Positions 42,873 through 48,672 of a stretch of 64,000 nt of DNA are shown piece after piece. The first letter of the stretch is position 1. Each line of letters opens with the position of its first letter. The notes under the pieces are model-generated. The model saw only the letters and a program-made list of their open reading frames with translations. It did no database searches and was not told where the DNA came from. Source of the stretch: Bacteroidota bacterium (lineage in GTDB: Bacteria > Bacteroidota > Bacteroidia > Chitinophagales > Chitinophagaceae); NCBI GenBank assembly GCA_016868815.1, contig VGFQ01000001.1, forward strand, positions 372,001 through 436,000, in the 5' to 3' direction. The position numbers were made by a program, and so were the translations under genes.

Positions 42873-43916
42873 ATGATACGCATCGGCTACATAACGCTTC
42901 CAGCATTCCCACTGCTGCTGGCCCCGATGGAGGACGTGAGCGATCCGCCCTTCCGGGCTGTCTGCAAACAGGCGGGCGCTGACCTCATGTTCTCAGAGTT
43001 CATCAGCAGTGAGGGACTAATCCGGGATGCCATCAAGAGCCGCCAGAAGCTGGACATCTTTGAGACAGAAAGACCCGTAGGCATCCAGATTTTCGGAGGC
43101 GACGAAGAAGCCATGGCCCTCAGCGCCCGGATCGTAGAGACTGTCAAACCCGACCTGCTGGATATCAACTTCGGATGCCCCGTCAAAAAAGTAGTCAGCA
43201 AAGGAGCGGGCGCAGCTGTGCTGAAAGACATTGCCCTCATGGAAAGGCTTACCAAGGCCGTCGTCCGGTCCACCTCACTGCCCGTCACCGTAAAAACGCG
43301 ATTGGGATGGGATGCCGACAGCATCCACATCGTAGAAGTAGCCGAACGCATGCAGGATGCCGGCGTACAAGCCCTGACCATCCATGCACGTACCCGTTGC
43401 CAACTGTATAAGGGAGCGGCCGACTGGTCGTGGATCGCCAAAGTCAAAGAAAACCCCCGCATACATATCCCCATTTTTGGGAACGGCGATATTGACACAC
43501 CCGAAAAAGCCCGAAACTACCACGACAGATACGGCGTCGACGGAATCATGATCGGAAGAGCTGCCATCGGCTATCCATGGATATTCCGGGAAATGCGGCA
43601 CTATCTTGAGACGGGCGAGCATCTGGCTCCCGCCAGCATCACAGAGAGGATCCATGTGATCCGGGAACACCTACTGCAGGGTGTGGCCTGGAAAGGACAC
43701 AAAGCAGGCATCCAAGAAATGCGGCGACATTATGGGAATTACCTGAAAGGACTACCCAACGTACGTTCCTATCGACAGCGACTGGTCACCAGCCCTTCCC
43801 TCGAAGAGATTCAAGATATCCTGGAAGACATCGCATCCAACTACCAACATCATATCTTCTCGCGCTGGGAACCTGCCATGGAAGGCATGGACTGTAGCTG
43901 TCCGGGGGAGGGTTAG
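42873..43916 (+). CDS. dusB: tRNA-dihydrouridine synthase (DusB type)
   Basis: 347 residues. FMN barrel with LAPMEDVSDPPFRAVCK, catalytic Cys in Asn-Phe-Gly-Cys-Pro-Val-Lys-Lys-Val-Val near residue 100, KTRLGWD, THARTRCQLYKGAADW and PIFGNGDI. Reduces uridines in the D-loop of tRNA. ATG at 42873 starts just before the barrel; the 11 upstream residues in frame are not conserved. Overlaps the crtB stop by 4 bp, convergent. Confidence 0.95.
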   Translation: MIRIGYITLPAFPLLLAPMEDVSDPPFRAVCKQAGADLMFSEFISSEGLIRDAIKSRQKLDIFETERPVGIQIFGGDEEAMALSARIVETVKPDLLDINFGCPVKKVVSKGAGAAVLKDIALMERLTKAVVRSTSLPVTVKTRLGWDADSIHIVEVAERMQDAGVQALTIHARTRCQLYKGAADWSWIAKVKENPRIHIPIFGNGDIDTPEKARNYHDRYGVDGIMIGRAAIGYPWIFREMRHYLETGEHLAPASITERIHVIREHLLQGVAWKGHKAGIQEMRRHYGNYLKGLPNVRSYRQRLVTSPSLEEIQDILEDIASNYQHHIFSRWEPAMEGMDCSCPGEG

Positions 43917-44749
43917 AGCATATTGAGCTGAGTTCGGATGACGGCCTTGGTGGCCACCCACAACTTGGCATGATTGGGGATGCGAATCCTTTCTTCCAGT
44001 ATGCGCTGTGGCTGCACATTCCGGATCTTACGAAACAGGCTGAGATAATATTTATAGGCCAGATACACGCCAAAGCGAGCCTTGAGCGGGAGCTGGACAA
44101 TGCCTTCGTAGGCATGTCGGAAATCGTGGGATATATCCTCTTCAATACGGTTTTTCATGTCCGGGGTAAAACGCTGGAAGTCTACACCCGGGAAATAGAC
44201 CCTTTTCAAGTCCTGGAAGTCGGCCTTTACATCCCGGAGGAAGTTGACTTTTTGAAAGGCAGACCCGAGGGATCGGGCATGTGGCTTCAGCCTTTCATAT
44301 TGCGACTTGTCGCCATCGCAAAACACATACAGACACATGAGTCCGACAACCTCGGCGCTTCCATAAATATAAGCTTCATACCCAACCTGGTCGTAGCGGT
44401 GGCGGTCGAGGTCGAACTCCATGCTCTTGAAGAACGCCTCTATCAAAGAAAGGTCAATGCCATAGTGGTTGACAGTCAGTTGAAAACTATGCAAGATTGG
44501 ATTTAGGCTGATGCCCCGTTCTATGGATGCATAGGTCTCGGTTTTGAAGGCGGAGAGCAAGGATTCCTTGTCGTGGGCGTGAAAGGTGTCGACAATTTCA
44601 TCAGCAAAGCGAACAAAGCCGTAAATATTGTAGATGGGCGTCTGAAGGTCGGCATGTAGAAGCCGGATGGCACTGCTGAAGGAAGTGCTGTACCGTTCCG
44701 TGGTGATTCGGCTACAAGCCTGGCTGACGTTGTGGAAGATCTGCATCAT
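43913..44749 (-). CDS. crtB: Phytoene synthase
   Basis: 278 residues of the squalene/phytoene synthase family. The two aspartate-rich motifs are visible: Asp-Glu-Ile-Val-Asp in RFADEIVDTF near residue 50 and Asp-Val-Lys-Ala-Asp in NFLRDVKADFQD near residue 170. Condenses two geranylgeranyl diphosphates to phytoene. ATG at 44749 (a second ATG follows at once). 90 bp after crtI; a TAAATTTA at 44770-44777 could be a weak own promoter, but co-transcription is the simple reading. Confidence 0.95.
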   Translation of the reverse strand: MMQIFHNVSQACSRITTERYSTSFSSAIRLLHADLQTPIYNIYGFVRFADEIVDTFHAHDKESLLSAFKTETYASIERGISLNPILHSFQLTVNHYGIDLSLIEAFFKSMEFDLDRHRYDQVGYEAYIYGSAEVVGLMCLYVFCDGDKSQYERLKPHARSLGSAFQKVNFLRDVKADFQDLKRVYFPGVDFQRFTPDMKNRIEEDISHDFRHAYEGIVQLPLKARFGVYLAYKYYLSLFRKIRNVQPQRILEERIRIPNHAKLWVATKAVIRTQLNML

Positions 44750-44839: not shown

Positions 44840-46315
44840 TTATCCGAACTGCTTCAGCACCTGGCCGGAGACAACTTCACCACTGATCAAACTGGGTGGG
44901 ACCCCTGGTCCGGGTACTGTCAATTGGCCTGTGTAGAAGAGGTTGTCGAGACGGGCGCTGCGGCAGGAAGGCTTCAGATGGGCAGTCTGCAAGAGCGTAT
45001 TGGCGAGTCCGTAGGCATTACCTTTAAAGGCATTGTAATCTTGTTGGAAATTCTGTTGGCAATATGACTGCTTAAAGAGAAGATGTTGGCGGATGTCCAC
45101 ACCGGTAAACTTTTGCAGCCGGTCGGCCATGATCTCAAAATAACGTGCTCGAATCTCCTCTGTATCGCTGGCCAATCCAGCCGCCAGCGGAATCAGGAAG
45201 ACCAGGTTTTCACAACCGGCGGGGGCGGCTGCCTCATCCGTCACACTGGAAGCGCTGAGGTAGAACAGGGGCTTCTCTGGCCACTGTTTGGTGATATAGA
45301 TGTCACGAGCATGCGGCTCAAAAGGCTCATCGAAGAACAAGGAATGGTGAGGAATGCCCGGGATGCGGGTGTCGAGTCCTACGAAATACAGCAAGGCCCC
45401 TGGTGCCATCAGCCGGCGGTCCCACCATCCCTGGGAATAGCTTCGATATGGCTTGGGCAAGAGCTGGGATTCAATGAAATGATAGTCGGCCCCTCCAATG
45501 ACGACATCCGCTTCATAGCTTTCCCCTCCGGTGGTGTGAACACTTCGAATGTTTCTGCCACTGATTTCGACCCGGTCAACCGTTCGTCCGAATTGGAAGG
45601 TGGCTCCTTGCTCTACGGCGAGCCGGTGCATGGCCTCAACGACGGAATACATCCCACCCATCGGATACCAGGTACCCAGCCGAATATCTGCATAGTTCAT
45701 GAGGCTATAGAGGGCAGGGGTGTCTTCCGGCCTGGCACCCAGAAACAAGACCGGGAACTCCAATAGCTGACGGATTTTGGGATGCTTAAAATGTTTGGCT
45801 ACATGGCTTTGGATTGATCGGAACACATCCAGCCGGAAGAGACCTCGAATTAGGTCGACATCCAGCAGTTCGGCCAGTGACTGCCCCGGCTTATACACCA
45901 ACTTGTCGATCCCCACGCGATACTTGTACTCGGCCTCGTGGAGAAAACGACCCAACTGGGTGGCAGCACCTGGCTCCAGGCTCTCCAGCAAGTCGCAGAG
46001 CGCTTCATAAGAAGCAGGCACATCCATCGGGCCATCTGACCAATATACACGGTAGGATGGGTCGAGACGGACGAGTGAATAGTAATCCTCTACCCGCTTG
46101 CCAAACCGCCCAAAGAATCGATCGAAGACATCCGGCATCCAATAGAAGCTGGGGCCTATGTCGAACGTAAAGCCGGCAGCTTGTAAACGCCGGGCCCTGC
46201 CACCGGGTATCTCATGCTTCTCCAGCACCGTCACCTGCCAGCCCGCACGGGCCATAAACGAAGCAGCAGAAAGCCCGGCAAAGCCGCTGCCAATGATGAC
46301 TGCTTTTTTTGTCAA
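44840..46315 (-). CDS. crtI: Phytoene desaturase
   Basis: 491 residues. FAD site VIIGSGFAGLSAASFMARAGW near residues 5-25 with Glu-Lys-His...Gly-Gly-Arg-Ala-Arg, and the C-terminal LFYTGQLTVPGPGVPPSLISGEVVSGQV family motif. Converts phytoene to lycopene. The start is not ATG: TTG at 46315 gives the family's usual beginning (M)TKKAVIIGSG; GTG at 46360 would add 15 poorly conserved residues. Second gene of the sigma-crtI-crtB unit; no cyclase or ketolase gene is in the window. Confidence 0.95.
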   Translation of the reverse strand: MTKKAVIIGSGFAGLSAASFMARAGWQVTVLEKHEIPGGRARRLQAAGFTFDIGPSFYWMPDVFDRFFGRFGKRVEDYYSLVRLDPSYRVYWSDGPMDVPASYEALCDLLESLEPGAATQLGRFLHEAEYKYRVGIDKLVYKPGQSLAELLDVDLIRGLFRLDVFRSIQSHVAKHFKHPKIRQLLEFPVLFLGARPEDTPALYSLMNYADIRLGTWYPMGGMYSVVEAMHRLAVEQGATFQFGRTVDRVEISGRNIRSVHTTGGESYEADVVIGGADYHFIESQLLPKPYRSYSQGWWDRRLMAPGALLYFVGLDTRIPGIPHHSLFFDEPFEPHARDIYITKQWPEKPLFYLSASSVTDEAAAPAGCENLVFLIPLAAGLASDTEEIRARYFEIMADRLQKFTGVDIRQHLLFKQSYCQQNFQQDYNAFKGNAYGLANTLLQTAHLKPSCRSARLDNLFYTGQLTVPGPGVPPSLISGEVVSGQVLKQFG

Positions 46316-46369
46316 CGTCTCTGAAATTATGAGATTATTCAGCTGCGGCCTCCAGGCCACCGTCCATCT

Positions 46370-46870
46370 TTAAAATCTTGAAATCTGCTCTTTGAGGAGC
46401 CTGCGGGCAAAGTGGATACGGCTTTTGATCGTTCCGAGGGGCTCATCGAGCGCATGGGCAATCTCGTGATACTTATACCCCTCAAAATAGAGAAGGAATG
46501 GCTGGCGGAAGATCTCAGGGAGACCATGGATAGCCTGCTGAACATCCTTCATCCGCAAGCTACTTTCCGCGCCACTATCAATGGTCGACTGGTTATAATC
46601 TAACAGAAAGTCATTGGAAGAGTTGTCGAAGATGGTATTTTGCTTGGCTTTCCTGCGGTAATTATTAATGAAAATGTTCCGCATGATGGTATAGAGCCAT
46701 GCCTTGATATTGGTGCCGACGCTGTATTTGTCATGGTTGGCCAAGGCCCGATACATGGTCTCCTGGAGCAGATCTTTGGCAGCCTCATGGTCCTTCGTCA
46801 AAGTCACAGCAAAGGGCTTCAGGAACTCTGTGTTCTGCAGCAGCATCTGGTTGAAATCTTGCTTGGACAT
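46370..46870 (-). CDS. ECF-type RNA polymerase sigma factor
   Basis: 166 residues. Region 2 (AKDLLQETMYRALANHDKY, KAWLYTIMRNIFINNYRR) and region 4 (QAIHGLPEIFRQPFLLYFEGYKYHEIAHALDEPLGTIKSRIHFARRLLKEQ) are clear. No anti-sigma gene adjoins it; control may instead come from the B12-domain MerR protein encoded upstream. First gene of the crt unit. Downstream crtI starts within 60 bp. ATG at 46870. Confidence 0.93.
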   Translation of the reverse strand: MSKQDFNQMLLQNTEFLKPFAVTLTKDHEAAKDLLQETMYRALANHDKYSVGTNIKAWLYTIMRNIFINNYRRKAKQNTIFDNSSNDFLLDYNQSTIDSGAESSLRMKDVQQAIHGLPEIFRQPFLLYFEGYKYHEIAHALDEPLGTIKSRIHFARRLLKEQISRF

Positions 46871-46873
46871 GGT

Positions 46874-46909
46874 TTTTGTTTAACAGGTTCAGGCCAAAGC
46901 TAAACAAAA
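46874..46909. promoter_or_regulatory. Operator-like inverted repeat 1
   Basis: Half-sites TTTTGTTTA (46874-46882) and TAAACAAAA (46901-46909) separated by 18 bp. The second half overlaps the -7 element and the first lies in the leader, so a bound protein would block transcription. The MerR-type regulator encoded 120 bp upstream is the natural candidate. Confidence 0.6.
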
Positions 46910-46927
46910 GTCTGCCAACCAGCCAAA
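46895..46927 (-). promoter_or_regulatory. Bacteroidota-type promoter for sigma-crtI-crtB
   Basis: On the minus strand, -33 TTTG (46924-46927) and -7 TAGCTTTG (46895-46902) match the TTTG / TAnnTTTG consensus exactly, with a 21-bp spacer. Transcription would start near 46888, giving a leader of about 18 nt. Confidence 0.7.
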
Positions 46928-46928
46928 T

Positions 46929-46964
46929 GTTTGTTTAATTTTTTTAAAAAAAAACTAAACAAAA
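46929..46964. promoter_or_regulatory. Operator-like inverted repeat 2
   Basis: Half-sites GTTTGTTTA (46929-46937) and TAAACAAAA (46956-46964), again exactly 18 bp apart, placed just upstream of the -33 element and 55 bp from repeat 1. Same spacing and nearly identical arms as repeat 1. Confidence 0.6.
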
Positions 46965-46989
46965 GGCTGGCGCCGGAGAAATGAGGCTA

Positions 46990-47871
46990 TTACTGAATCG
47001 TGGAAATGAATTCAGTGACCTCCTGGAGGGATTTTTTGAAAACAATCTGGGGGGGGATCTTTCTCTCGTAAGCCAATGCAAGCTTACCGGATATGATCAT
47101 GGGCGTGGAGTCAAAACGCTTCAATGACTGAGCGAGGAAGCGGTCGAAGTTGAAGGCATGAGAAACAGAGGTCAGATGAGTGTACAGGAAGTCAGGTTTC
47201 ATATACCCAATGACTTGTTGCACGTCATTCAAAGGTACGTTGGCGCCCAAGTAGATTACTCGAATCCCCCTACTTTTCATCATGTAATAGACAAACAGAA
47301 GGCCCAGCTCATGAAACTCTCCTTCAGGCAAAAAGAGGAGCAGGGTCTTGGGGATATGCACATGGGTATTGATAGTATCGATCCCCACTAGGATTTTCTG
47401 GCGGATAATATTAGAGACCAGATGTTCCTGGGCAGGGATGATATGTCCTGTCATCCATAGGACGCCTATGCGCTCCAGGAAGGGGAAAATAATCTGGCTG
47501 ATGGATTTTTCGATCCCTCGCTGGCGGATGTAATCGGTGAGCCTGAATTCAAAAGCATCCATCTCCATGTCAACCATGGCCTGAATCAGTTCGTTGATGA
47601 CCTTCTCATGCTGAGCCAAGGCGTTGCTGAGATGGTTGATTTTGTCGTTGATCTCCGGCTCACTCATCCGATCGATGTGGGAGATCTTATAGCCGTACTT
47701 ATTTAGGAGGGCTATATTCAAAATCTTCTTAAGTTCCTCGTTATTATAATAACGGATGTTGGTATCTGTCCGTCGGGGCTTGAGAAATGAGTAGCGTTGC
47801 TCCCATATACGGATGGTATGGGCCTTGATCCCAGTCAGGTTTTCCAGATCTTTGATCGTAAATGCGTTCAT
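46990..47871 (-). CDS. MerR-type regulator with B12-binding domain (CarH/LitR-like)
   Basis: 293 residues. N-terminal MerR winged helix (about 1-70, TIKDLENLTGIKAHTIRIWEQRY), helical bundle with Trp139-x9-Glu149-His150, the CarH upper-face motif, and a Rossmann-type cobalamin domain with Glu185-Phe-His187-Glu-Leu-Gly190, matching the (E/D)xHxxG ligand motif. Such proteins bind adenosylcobalamin in the dark, tetramerise, repress, and lose DNA binding when light breaks the Co-C bond. The residue after the Trp is Met, where Thermus CarH has the His that captures cobalt after light. Upstream of the crt unit on the same strand; carH/litR-like. Confidence 0.88.
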   Translation of the reverse strand: MNAFTIKDLENLTGIKAHTIRIWEQRYSFLKPRRTDTNIRYYNNEELKKILNIALLNKYGYKISHIDRMSEPEINDKINHLSNALAQHEKVINELIQAMVDMEMDAFEFRLTDYIRQRGIEKSISQIIFPFLERIGVLWMTGHIIPAQEHLVSNIIRQKILVGIDTINTHVHIPKTLLLFLPEGEFHELGLLFVYYMMKSRGIRVIYLGANVPLNDVQQVIGYMKPDFLYTHLTSVSHAFNFDRFLAQSLKRFDSTPMIISGKLALAYERKIPPQIVFKKSLQEVTEFISTIQ

Positions 47872-47931
47872 GGAGACAACAACAGGTTTGACCCTGATTT
47901 GTTCAGTGATTGGAAAAATTGACCCGCAGGG

Positions 47932-48672
47932 CTAGAGACGGGTATTCATCAGTCCCTTCTCATGGACCAGCTGGGCGAGGGGGGGGGTCAAGGGCAGTTC
48001 TCGCAATGCCTGTAGGTGTTTCTCGTGATGAAGGTCGGTACCCAGGAAGTCGACCATGTCATGCTTGACAAGGTATTCTGCAGCTTGACGGACTGGCTGA
48101 CCGTAATACCCGCTGAAAGACAATAAGTTACATTGGAAAAGGCAGCCCATGTCCCTGATGTCAGCATACTGCTGGGGTTTGGACTGATAAAAGAAATAAC
48201 GTTCGGGATGGGCAAAGACAGGCTGGTACCCTTTCATCTGGATCTCGAAAAGCACTTCCCGTAGATACATAGGGGGGTTGACAAAAGAAATCTCAACCAA
48301 GACAAAGCTATCCTTCAGGGTCAGCAACGGAACTTTTTTGGCAAGCATGCTGTCGACATTCCCATCCAGTAGATATTCCGCTGCATACCGGATGGGGACC
48401 TCCATGCCCTCTTCTGCCATTTTGATCTGAAGGTTATTATATGCCTCCTGGATGGTCCGCTTATTGTTGCGGAACATATCTTCCATGACATGAGGAGTTG
48501 CAGTGAGCTTTTGGTAGCCAAGGTCTAACAAACCCTTCACCAGCATCAAAGAAGTCTCCGGGTCCGGCGATCCATCGTCAATCCCGGGCAGGATATGGGA
48601 ATGCATATCCGTGCCCAACAATTCGAAGGGAAATGGTTCTGCCGGTTTCCGCTTTCGGAAAATGGAAAACAT
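47932..48672 (-). CDS. PHP-domain tyrosine phosphatase (CpsB/YwqE type)
   Basis: 246 residues. PHP metal motifs: Asp-Met-His-Ser-His-Ile-Leu-Pro-Gly-Ile-Asp-Asp near residue 22, Thr-Pro-His-Val-Met, His-Pro-Glu-Arg-Tyr near 155 and Gly-Thr-Asp-Leu-His-His near 215. CpsB-like phosphatases remove phosphate from the tyrosine kinase that controls capsule export. It lies at the distal end of the polysaccharide cluster; the kinase/export genes would be beyond the window. Confidence 0.9.
   Translation of the reverse strand: MFSIFRKRKPAEPFPFELLGTDMHSHILPGIDDGSPDPETSLMLVKGLLDLGYQKLTATPHVMEDMFRNNKRTIQEAYNNLQIKMAEEGMEVPIRYAAEYLLDGNVDSMLAKKVPLLTLKDSFVLVEISFVNPPMYLREVLFEIQMKGYQPVFAHPERYFFYQSKPQQYADIRDMGCLFQCNLLSFSGYYGQPVRQAAEYLVKHDMVDFLGTDLHHEKHLQALRELPLTPPLAQLVHEKGLMNTRL

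Follow-up and report, generated by a model that had tools for sequence, protein, structure and literature searches.

Results

Genes and promoter of the carotenoid locus

On the minus strand of the window, by which we mean the whole 64,000-nucleotide stretch analysed, a gene coding for a MerR-type regulator with a B12-binding domain (merR) is followed by a 119-bp gap and then by genes for an ECF-type sigma factor, CrtI and CrtB (Table 1). The regulator is thereby linked to carotenoid synthesis in the window itself, with sigma-crtI-crtB lying next to it. GC content is 55% over the window compared with 37% in the merR-sigma gap. The crtI product scores above the NCBIfam cut-off for CrtID, a bifunctional phytoene desaturase/3,4-desaturase, which hints at the type of pigment produced.

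Table 1. Positions in the window of the genes, predicted operator repeats and candidate promoter boxes.
Feature	Position	Strand	Basis or remark
crtB-type phytoene synthase	43913..44749	minus	SQS_PSY
crtI-type phytoene desaturase	44840..46360	minus	NCBIfam CrtID above cut-off
ECF-type sigma factor, 166 aa, first gene past the predicted operator	46370..46870	minus	Pfam Sigma70_r2 and Sigma70_r4_2
Proximal inverted repeat TTTGTTTA-N18-TAAACAAA (proximal operator, predicted)	46875..46908	minus	overlaps candidate -7 box
TAGCTTTG, candidate -7 box (perfect TAnnTTTG), inside proximal repeat	46895..46902	minus	Bacteroidota promoter consensus
TTTG, candidate -33 box	46924..46927	minus	Bacteroidota promoter consensus
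Distal inverted repeat TTTGTTTA-N18-TAAACAAA (distal operator, predicted)	46930..46963	minus	just upstream of candidate -33 box
MerR-type regulator with C-terminal B12-binding domain (CarH/LitR-like), 293 aa	46990..47871	minus	Pfam, TtCarH match, AlphaFold/Foldseek

The gap contains two copies of the inverted repeat TTTGTTTA-N18-TAAACAAA, 55 bp apart. TTTGTTTA is located at 46875-46882 and 46930-46937 and TAAACAAA at 46901-46908 and 46956-46963, coordinates which confirm the original prediction that the half-sites occur twice with exactly 18 bp inside each pair. The proximal repeat ends 4 bp before the sigma ATG at 46870. With up to two mismatches allowed, the 34-bp pattern is matched twice in the window compared with a mean of 0.01 matches in 100 shuffles, and the exact pattern occurs only at these two places in the entire assembly (2,847,907 bases, 92% complete), as does its 6-base core, TGTTTA-N18/19-TAAACA. 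At three mismatches, 14 places are detected in the assembly in comparison with 12 for a control pattern, indicating that no further site stands out.

Bacteroidota promoters follow the consensus TAnnTTTG at -7 and TTTG at -33. Both elements are observed in the gap, TTTG (46927-46924) lying 21 bp before a perfect TAnnTTTG, with the distal repeat (46963-46930) just upstream of the TTTG. Thus, on the minus strand, one repeat lies over the candidate -7 box and the other upstream of the candidate -33 box, as had been predicted. Of 81 proximal sites in the window's family, 65 have TAnnTTTG or TAnnTTTA in the corresponding position, and a peak of TTG is located 20–21 bp before the -7 box (30 of the 81 sites). 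If the consensus applies, the transcript would begin inside the proximal repeat, approximately 20 bases before the ATG.

An RNA hairpin or terminator was also considered as the main function of the repeats and was rejected. Folding is possible at the RNA level (-10.4 and -10.5 kcal/mol; z -3.4 and -4.4), but the stems are AU-rich, the letters of the half-sites are nearly invariant, the candidate -7 box begins within the left arm of the proximal repeat, and 46600-48000 showed no terminator-like site.

Conservation within the family

The MerR protein was found in 123 of 195 genomes of the window's family at E <= 1e-15. We took 110 matches, comprising the top of the list, from which G098 (internal stop), G120, G137, G030, G186, G115, G154, G111 and G033 were excluded, and 16 second-tier matches of lower similarity (L097-L112). 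At 83 of the 110 loci merR has a sigma gene as neighbour, in two of them in divergent orientation, and crtI is present within the short locus at 66 of the 83. A lack of conservation in relatives with the same gene order had been named beforehand as one outcome that would count against the prediction, and the repeats are in fact conserved: within 300 bp before sigma, TGTTTA-N18/19-TAAACA is exact in 75 of the 83 linked loci and present with at most one mismatch in 80, leaving three loci without a site even at one mismatch. Spacing is constrained, the exact core occurring in 20 of the 83 merR-sigma gaps at N18 and in 61 at N19, compared with four region matches for the remaining spacers between 8 and 30 taken together (one at N11 and three at N12; shuffled means <=0.1). 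A second copy, with up to two mismatches, accompanies the first in 50 of the 83 loci, and in 43 of these 50 it is located 55–57 bp from the proximal copy.

The motif follows the regulator gene rather than the sigma gene

Sigma orthologues were detected at E <= 1e-30 in 136 of the 195 family genomes, 29 of the 136 being without a merR match. We examined 27 of these 29 merR-less genomes (all except G018 and G147), 6 genomes with a close but unlinked merR, and 7 of the 10 genomes in which sigma lies outside the 83 loci and only a distant merR paralogue is present (all except G062, G099 and G185). The exact motif precedes sigma in 6 of 6 genomes with a close merR elsewhere, in 3 of 7 with the distant paralogue only and in 1 of 27 in which no merR was found. 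In G036, one of the motif-negative genomes, a distant merR paralogue lies directly before sigma. The sole merR-less positive, G112, is 69% complete and belongs to genus g14, of which both other sampled genomes have merR. In those merR-less genomes that still carry crtI after sigma, the motif is absent throughout (0 of 6). Pooled, 81 of the 89 merR-bearing loci have the exact motif, as against one of the 27 in which no merR was found (Fisher p 8e-18, a value uncorrected for kinship); the other eight of the 89 are without an exact site.

Differences between merR-bearing and merR-less genomes are also observed within genera: in six (g36, g86, g77, g25, g9 and g51) the motif differs as expected, g14 being the genus in which it does not. 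In g9, the merR-less genome G108 retains a remnant of the motif with two mismatches. A tree-based test gave a mean of 2.7 concordant and 0.0 opposed pairs on supported branches, the three usable pairs being too few for p < 0.05.

The motif is also present where crtI follows merR in the absence of a close sigma gene. The exact motif is found at the start of crtI in L080, L103, L158 and L163, a one-mismatch motif at crtI together with an exact copy before merR in L106 and L110, and a single one-mismatch copy, before merR, in L162. The presence of the motif at such loci and its absence where merR is lacking indicate that it follows the regulator, not sigma.

Copies situated directly before merR are exact in L106, L110, L321 and L325 and carry one mismatch in L158, L162 and L163, a position which suggests autoregulation of the regulator in some Bacteroidota. 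The merR gene of the window has no repeat directly in front of it. Sigma orthologues accompanied neither by merR nor by a directly following crtI were observed in many of the relatives examined, so that the sigma factor seems to have roles beyond the control of carotenoids.

Other families of the phylum

Across 296 genomes of the phylum, merR was detected at E <= 1e-40 in 58, nine of which belong to the window's own family. Among the 21 loci listed from other families, 10 have sigma downstream, and in these the motif is exact in eight and has one mismatch in two. A further set of named genomes was drawn with a Cyclobacteriaceae-like query, as the best 80 of at least 593 candidate loci, and includes Algoriphagus, Litoribacter, Marivirga, Roseivirga, Pontibacter, Adhaeribacter, Spirosoma, Emticicia and uncultured relatives. 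Among these mainly Cytophagales records are L339, L346 and L374, metagenome assemblies that bear the title Chitinophaga pinensis. The best 80 divide equally into 40 loci with sigma within 900 bp downstream of merR and 40 without. An exact motif is located downstream of merR in 36 of the former as against one of the latter, L300, whose contig ends 0.3 kb after merR. In L309, also of the class without sigma, an exact motif precedes a more remote sigma-crtI pair. Four loci of each class have an exact copy in front of merR.

The distance between neighbouring repeats varies by group. In the best 80 named loci it clusters at 44–45 bp (11 pairs) and 63–64 bp (6 pairs), compared with the 55–57 bp of 43 pairs in the window's family, and 10 pairs stand at other distances. 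DNA makes one turn in 10.5 bp, giving approximately 4.2, 5.3 and 6.0 turns for 44–45, 55–57 and 63–64 bp, respectively; helical phasing of the repeats is suggestive at best and is not claimed.

Genome-wide specificity and sites at pterin and photolyase genes

The exact 16-base pattern, with a spacer of 18 or 19, occurs at 75 sites in the 195 family genomes: 44 before sigma, 6 at merR, 1 at crtI, 6 at PTPS/folE genes, 2 at photolyase genes and 16 elsewhere. Thus, 59 of the 75 long-form sites are associated with sigma, merR, crtI, pterin or photolyase genes. Sites were sorted by coordinates and flanking genes, with a Pfam check of ten proteins at eight of these loci; the remaining genes were named from coordinates or from reading of the translation. 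As a reversed control pattern gave 18 sites in the same genomes, the 16 stray sites correspond to chance level.

Starting from the genes rather than the motif, we inspected the top-ranking folE and photolyase loci of the 195 genomes, 30 of each. Seven of the folE loci and one of the photolyase loci had an exact motif nearby, and other spacers gave one locus each. This test is not independent, as its queries came from a motif-bearing locus and the single photolyase match is the query's own locus; five of the seven folE loci were already known via the motif and the other two (L191 and L210) may be chance. Combined, these results indicate that membership of phr and folE is sporadic and confined to a few lineages, and we rejected both as general members of the regulon.

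In the window's genome, photolyase and folE are located on contig C12, with no operator motif there; the segment concerned (L249, G000:C12, 3254-7744) contains photolyase, two genes resembling PTPS by translation and folE within 4.5 kb. A second, more distant B12-MerR paralogue, 38–39% identical to the protein of the window, lies beside folE in G171:C2, G161:C4 and G152:C267, which hints at a separate photolyase/pterin branch, perhaps with its own operator.

The regulator protein

The N-terminus of the protein matches the MerR helix-turn-helix family PF13411 (MerR_1) with 52 bits, the cut-off being 21.6. PF02607 (B12-binding_2) is matched with 32.9 bits, above its cut-off of 23, and PF02310 (B12-binding) with 25.1 bits, below its cut-off of 32.1, with the ExHxxG motif present. 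The closest solved relative by sequence, among distinct entries, is CarH of Thermus thermophilus (TtCarH; 3whp and 5c8d, E 5.8e-22 for the latter). TtCarH also provides the top Foldseek matches to the AlphaFold model, with a target TM of ∼0.75–0.79 for the B12 domain. The rmsd is large for the full-length protein and 3.5–4.8 Å for the B12 domain alone, indicating that the domains agree and their relative placement differs. A score of 111.5 bits against the NCBIfam CarH equivalog NF052513 lies below the curated cut-off of 400, and we therefore refer to the protein as CarH/LitR-like.

Residues by which CarH holds adenosylcobalamin (AdoCbl) are retained. In the crt-type group of the family, the equivalents of W131, E141, H142 and H177 are present in 79, 77, 78 and 78 of 79 homologues, respectively, and Wx9EH is kept in 39 of the 40 named merR-sigma loci among the best 80 of at least 593. 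This retention makes use of AdoCbl by the regulator likely. The genome encodes a PduO-type cobalamin adenosyltransferase, suggesting that AdoCbl can probably be made from cobalamin.

In Thermus CarH, histidine 132 is described as becoming the upper ligand of cobalt once the protein has been illuminated, and as needed for most of the break-up of the tetramer (PMC10442372). According to the same source, TtCarH H132A is mostly tetrameric in the light, and an earlier report cited there has it falling apart. Three of 79 family homologues and none of 21 others have histidine at the equivalent position, where the window protein has methionine. We dropped the loss of H132 as a hallmark of Bacteroidota, since Caballeronia and Azospirillum homologues also lack it. 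Residue 143, four positions after the W131 equivalent, is histidine in 68 of the 79 family homologues and uncommonly so in other families; it is a possible substitute upper ligand. MliR, considered as an already described homologue, was rejected, being presented in PMC9478572 as a MerR-like protein without an effector domain.

Discussion

On comparative grounds, we hold with high confidence that the repeats constitute the putative operator of the adjacent B12-domain MerR protein; they are very probably its docking site, since presence and absence of the palindrome match those of the regulator gene among the relatives examined. The original prediction of an operator of this protein serving sigma-crtI-crtB is supported by conservation, by the tracking of the regulator and by placement on the candidate promoter boxes. 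Sites at phr genes are not general.

Light control of the operon is likely. The complete scheme, for which we infer DNA binding, repression, AdoCbl as ligand and light as signal from sequence comparison, is a dark-repressor model that we regard as probable. In the dark, the AdoCbl-bound MerR protein would occupy both repeats as a bipartite operator. Occupancy of the proximal repeat would cover the -7 box and the start region, the distal repeat abutting the -33 box, and RNA polymerase would be kept off the sigma-crtI-crtB promoter. Illumination would break the cobalt-carbon bond, upon which the protein would release the DNA, allowing the ECF sigma factor and the carotenoid enzymes to be made together.

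A different signal could act through the same regulator-operator pair, the protein being either CarA-like, that is B12-independent and released by a partner, or a sensor of B12 supply or photo-oxidative stress. Such a signal would accord with the loss of H132 in nearly all homologues examined, though this residue is also missing in the Caballeronia and Azospirillum homologues, and with the operator described for CarA, which likewise comprises two inverted repeats, upstream of and overlapping the -35 region (PMC9304148). It appears unlikely to us in view of the retention of W131, E141, H142 and the cobalt ligand H177 and the presence of an adenosyltransferase; the sites that a few genomes have at photolyase and pterin genes also fit a response to light.

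Alternatively, the protein may function here as a light-triggered activator in the manner of Streptomyces LitR at litS, where the same circuit parts, a B12-MerR protein, a sigma factor and crt genes, are found and LitR is reported to promote litS transcription (PMC12705666). We judge activation to be quite improbable, as the candidate -7 box lies under the repeat with the highest conservation, which reaches to within 4 bp of the ATG, and the placement of the repeats resembles the repressor layout described for CarA (PMC9304148). That a different regulator, or the sigma factor itself, recognises the repeats, as their position directly before sigma in most loci might imply, is highly improbable, given that 26 of 27 sigma orthologues without a merR match have no exact motif and that merR-crtI loci without a close sigma carry it.

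Beyond the dark-repressor model for this locus, we tentatively raise the idea that Bacteroidota possess a distinct branch of B12 photoreceptors, with its own DNA code and a light switch free of H132. In the same reading, and with no greater assurance, this code might consist of inverted half-sites 24–25 bp apart, arranged as two units at a few preferred distances. If true, many environmental Bacteroidota would adjust their carotenoid output to light through one phylum-wide operator.

Among the papers listed by our full-text literature search, we recognised none describing this operator in Bacteroidota. The gene arrangement has precedents: a B12-domain MerR gene upstream of crt genes is already noted for a flavobacterium (PMC6974559) and a MerR gene for the crt cluster of Nonlabens (PMC11855829). 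Light-induced carotenoids are reported for Chryseobacterium lacus, in which the authors state that they found no car or lit genes (PMC7064467). The present analysis names promoter, regulator and target and provides a searchable predicted operator through which light and B12 probably control carotenoids in a phylum. It also raises the question of how such a photoreceptor would switch without histidine 132, and the promoter could serve as an optogenetic part for Bacteroidota.

Comparison with known systems

The window protein shares with CarH of T. thermophilus and B. megaterium a MerR N-terminus, a B12 helix bundle and Rossmann domain, the Wx9EH and ExHxxG motifs and a carotenoid target, but unlike Thermus CarH it has no H132. 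CarH operators in Thermus and Bacillus are described as three or four tandem 11-bp repeats, nnnnTnnACAn, with the core TnnACA (PMC9304148). The half-site TAAACA fits this core (PMC9304148), whereas the operator predicted in the window consists of wide inverted repeats instead of tandem ones. Tandem 11-bp CarH repeats hidden in the spacer were sought by offset counts and not found: one of 79 proximal sites and one of 44 distal sites have a TnnACA 11 bp upstream of the right half-site, and no site has one 11 bp downstream.

CarA of Myxococcus xanthus, which does not need B12, is reported to act on a ∼55-bp Pcrt operator comprising two inverted repeats bound by two dimers, one repeat being upstream of the -35 region and the other overlapping it (PMC9304148). 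The window resembles this layout in that the distal repeat precedes the candidate -33 box and the proximal repeat overlaps the candidate promoter. It differs in that its repeats are 34-bp units which together span 89 bp, and the distances between repeats in our data are mostly 44–45, 55–57 or 63–64 bp according to group.

The association of a B12-MerR protein and a sigma factor with crt genes also resembles the LitR-LitS pair of Streptomyces coelicolor, in which the B12-MerR protein controls a sigma factor tied to crt genes (PMC12705666). Among the differences, LitR reportedly promotes transcription of litS when illuminated (PMC12705666), and the sigma gene of the window is the first gene before crtI and crtB. 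For class II LitR proteins of Pseudomonas (PplR/PmlR), phrB, folE and cryB are reported as light-inducible (PMC9758184), a regulon which the sporadic sites at photolyase and PTPS/folE genes resemble; of the B12 domain these proteins reportedly retain just the helix-bundle half, and PmlR2 is described as working with a LOV protein (PMC9758184). Considered together with these systems, the predicted operator is a further layout built from the known CarH half-site core.
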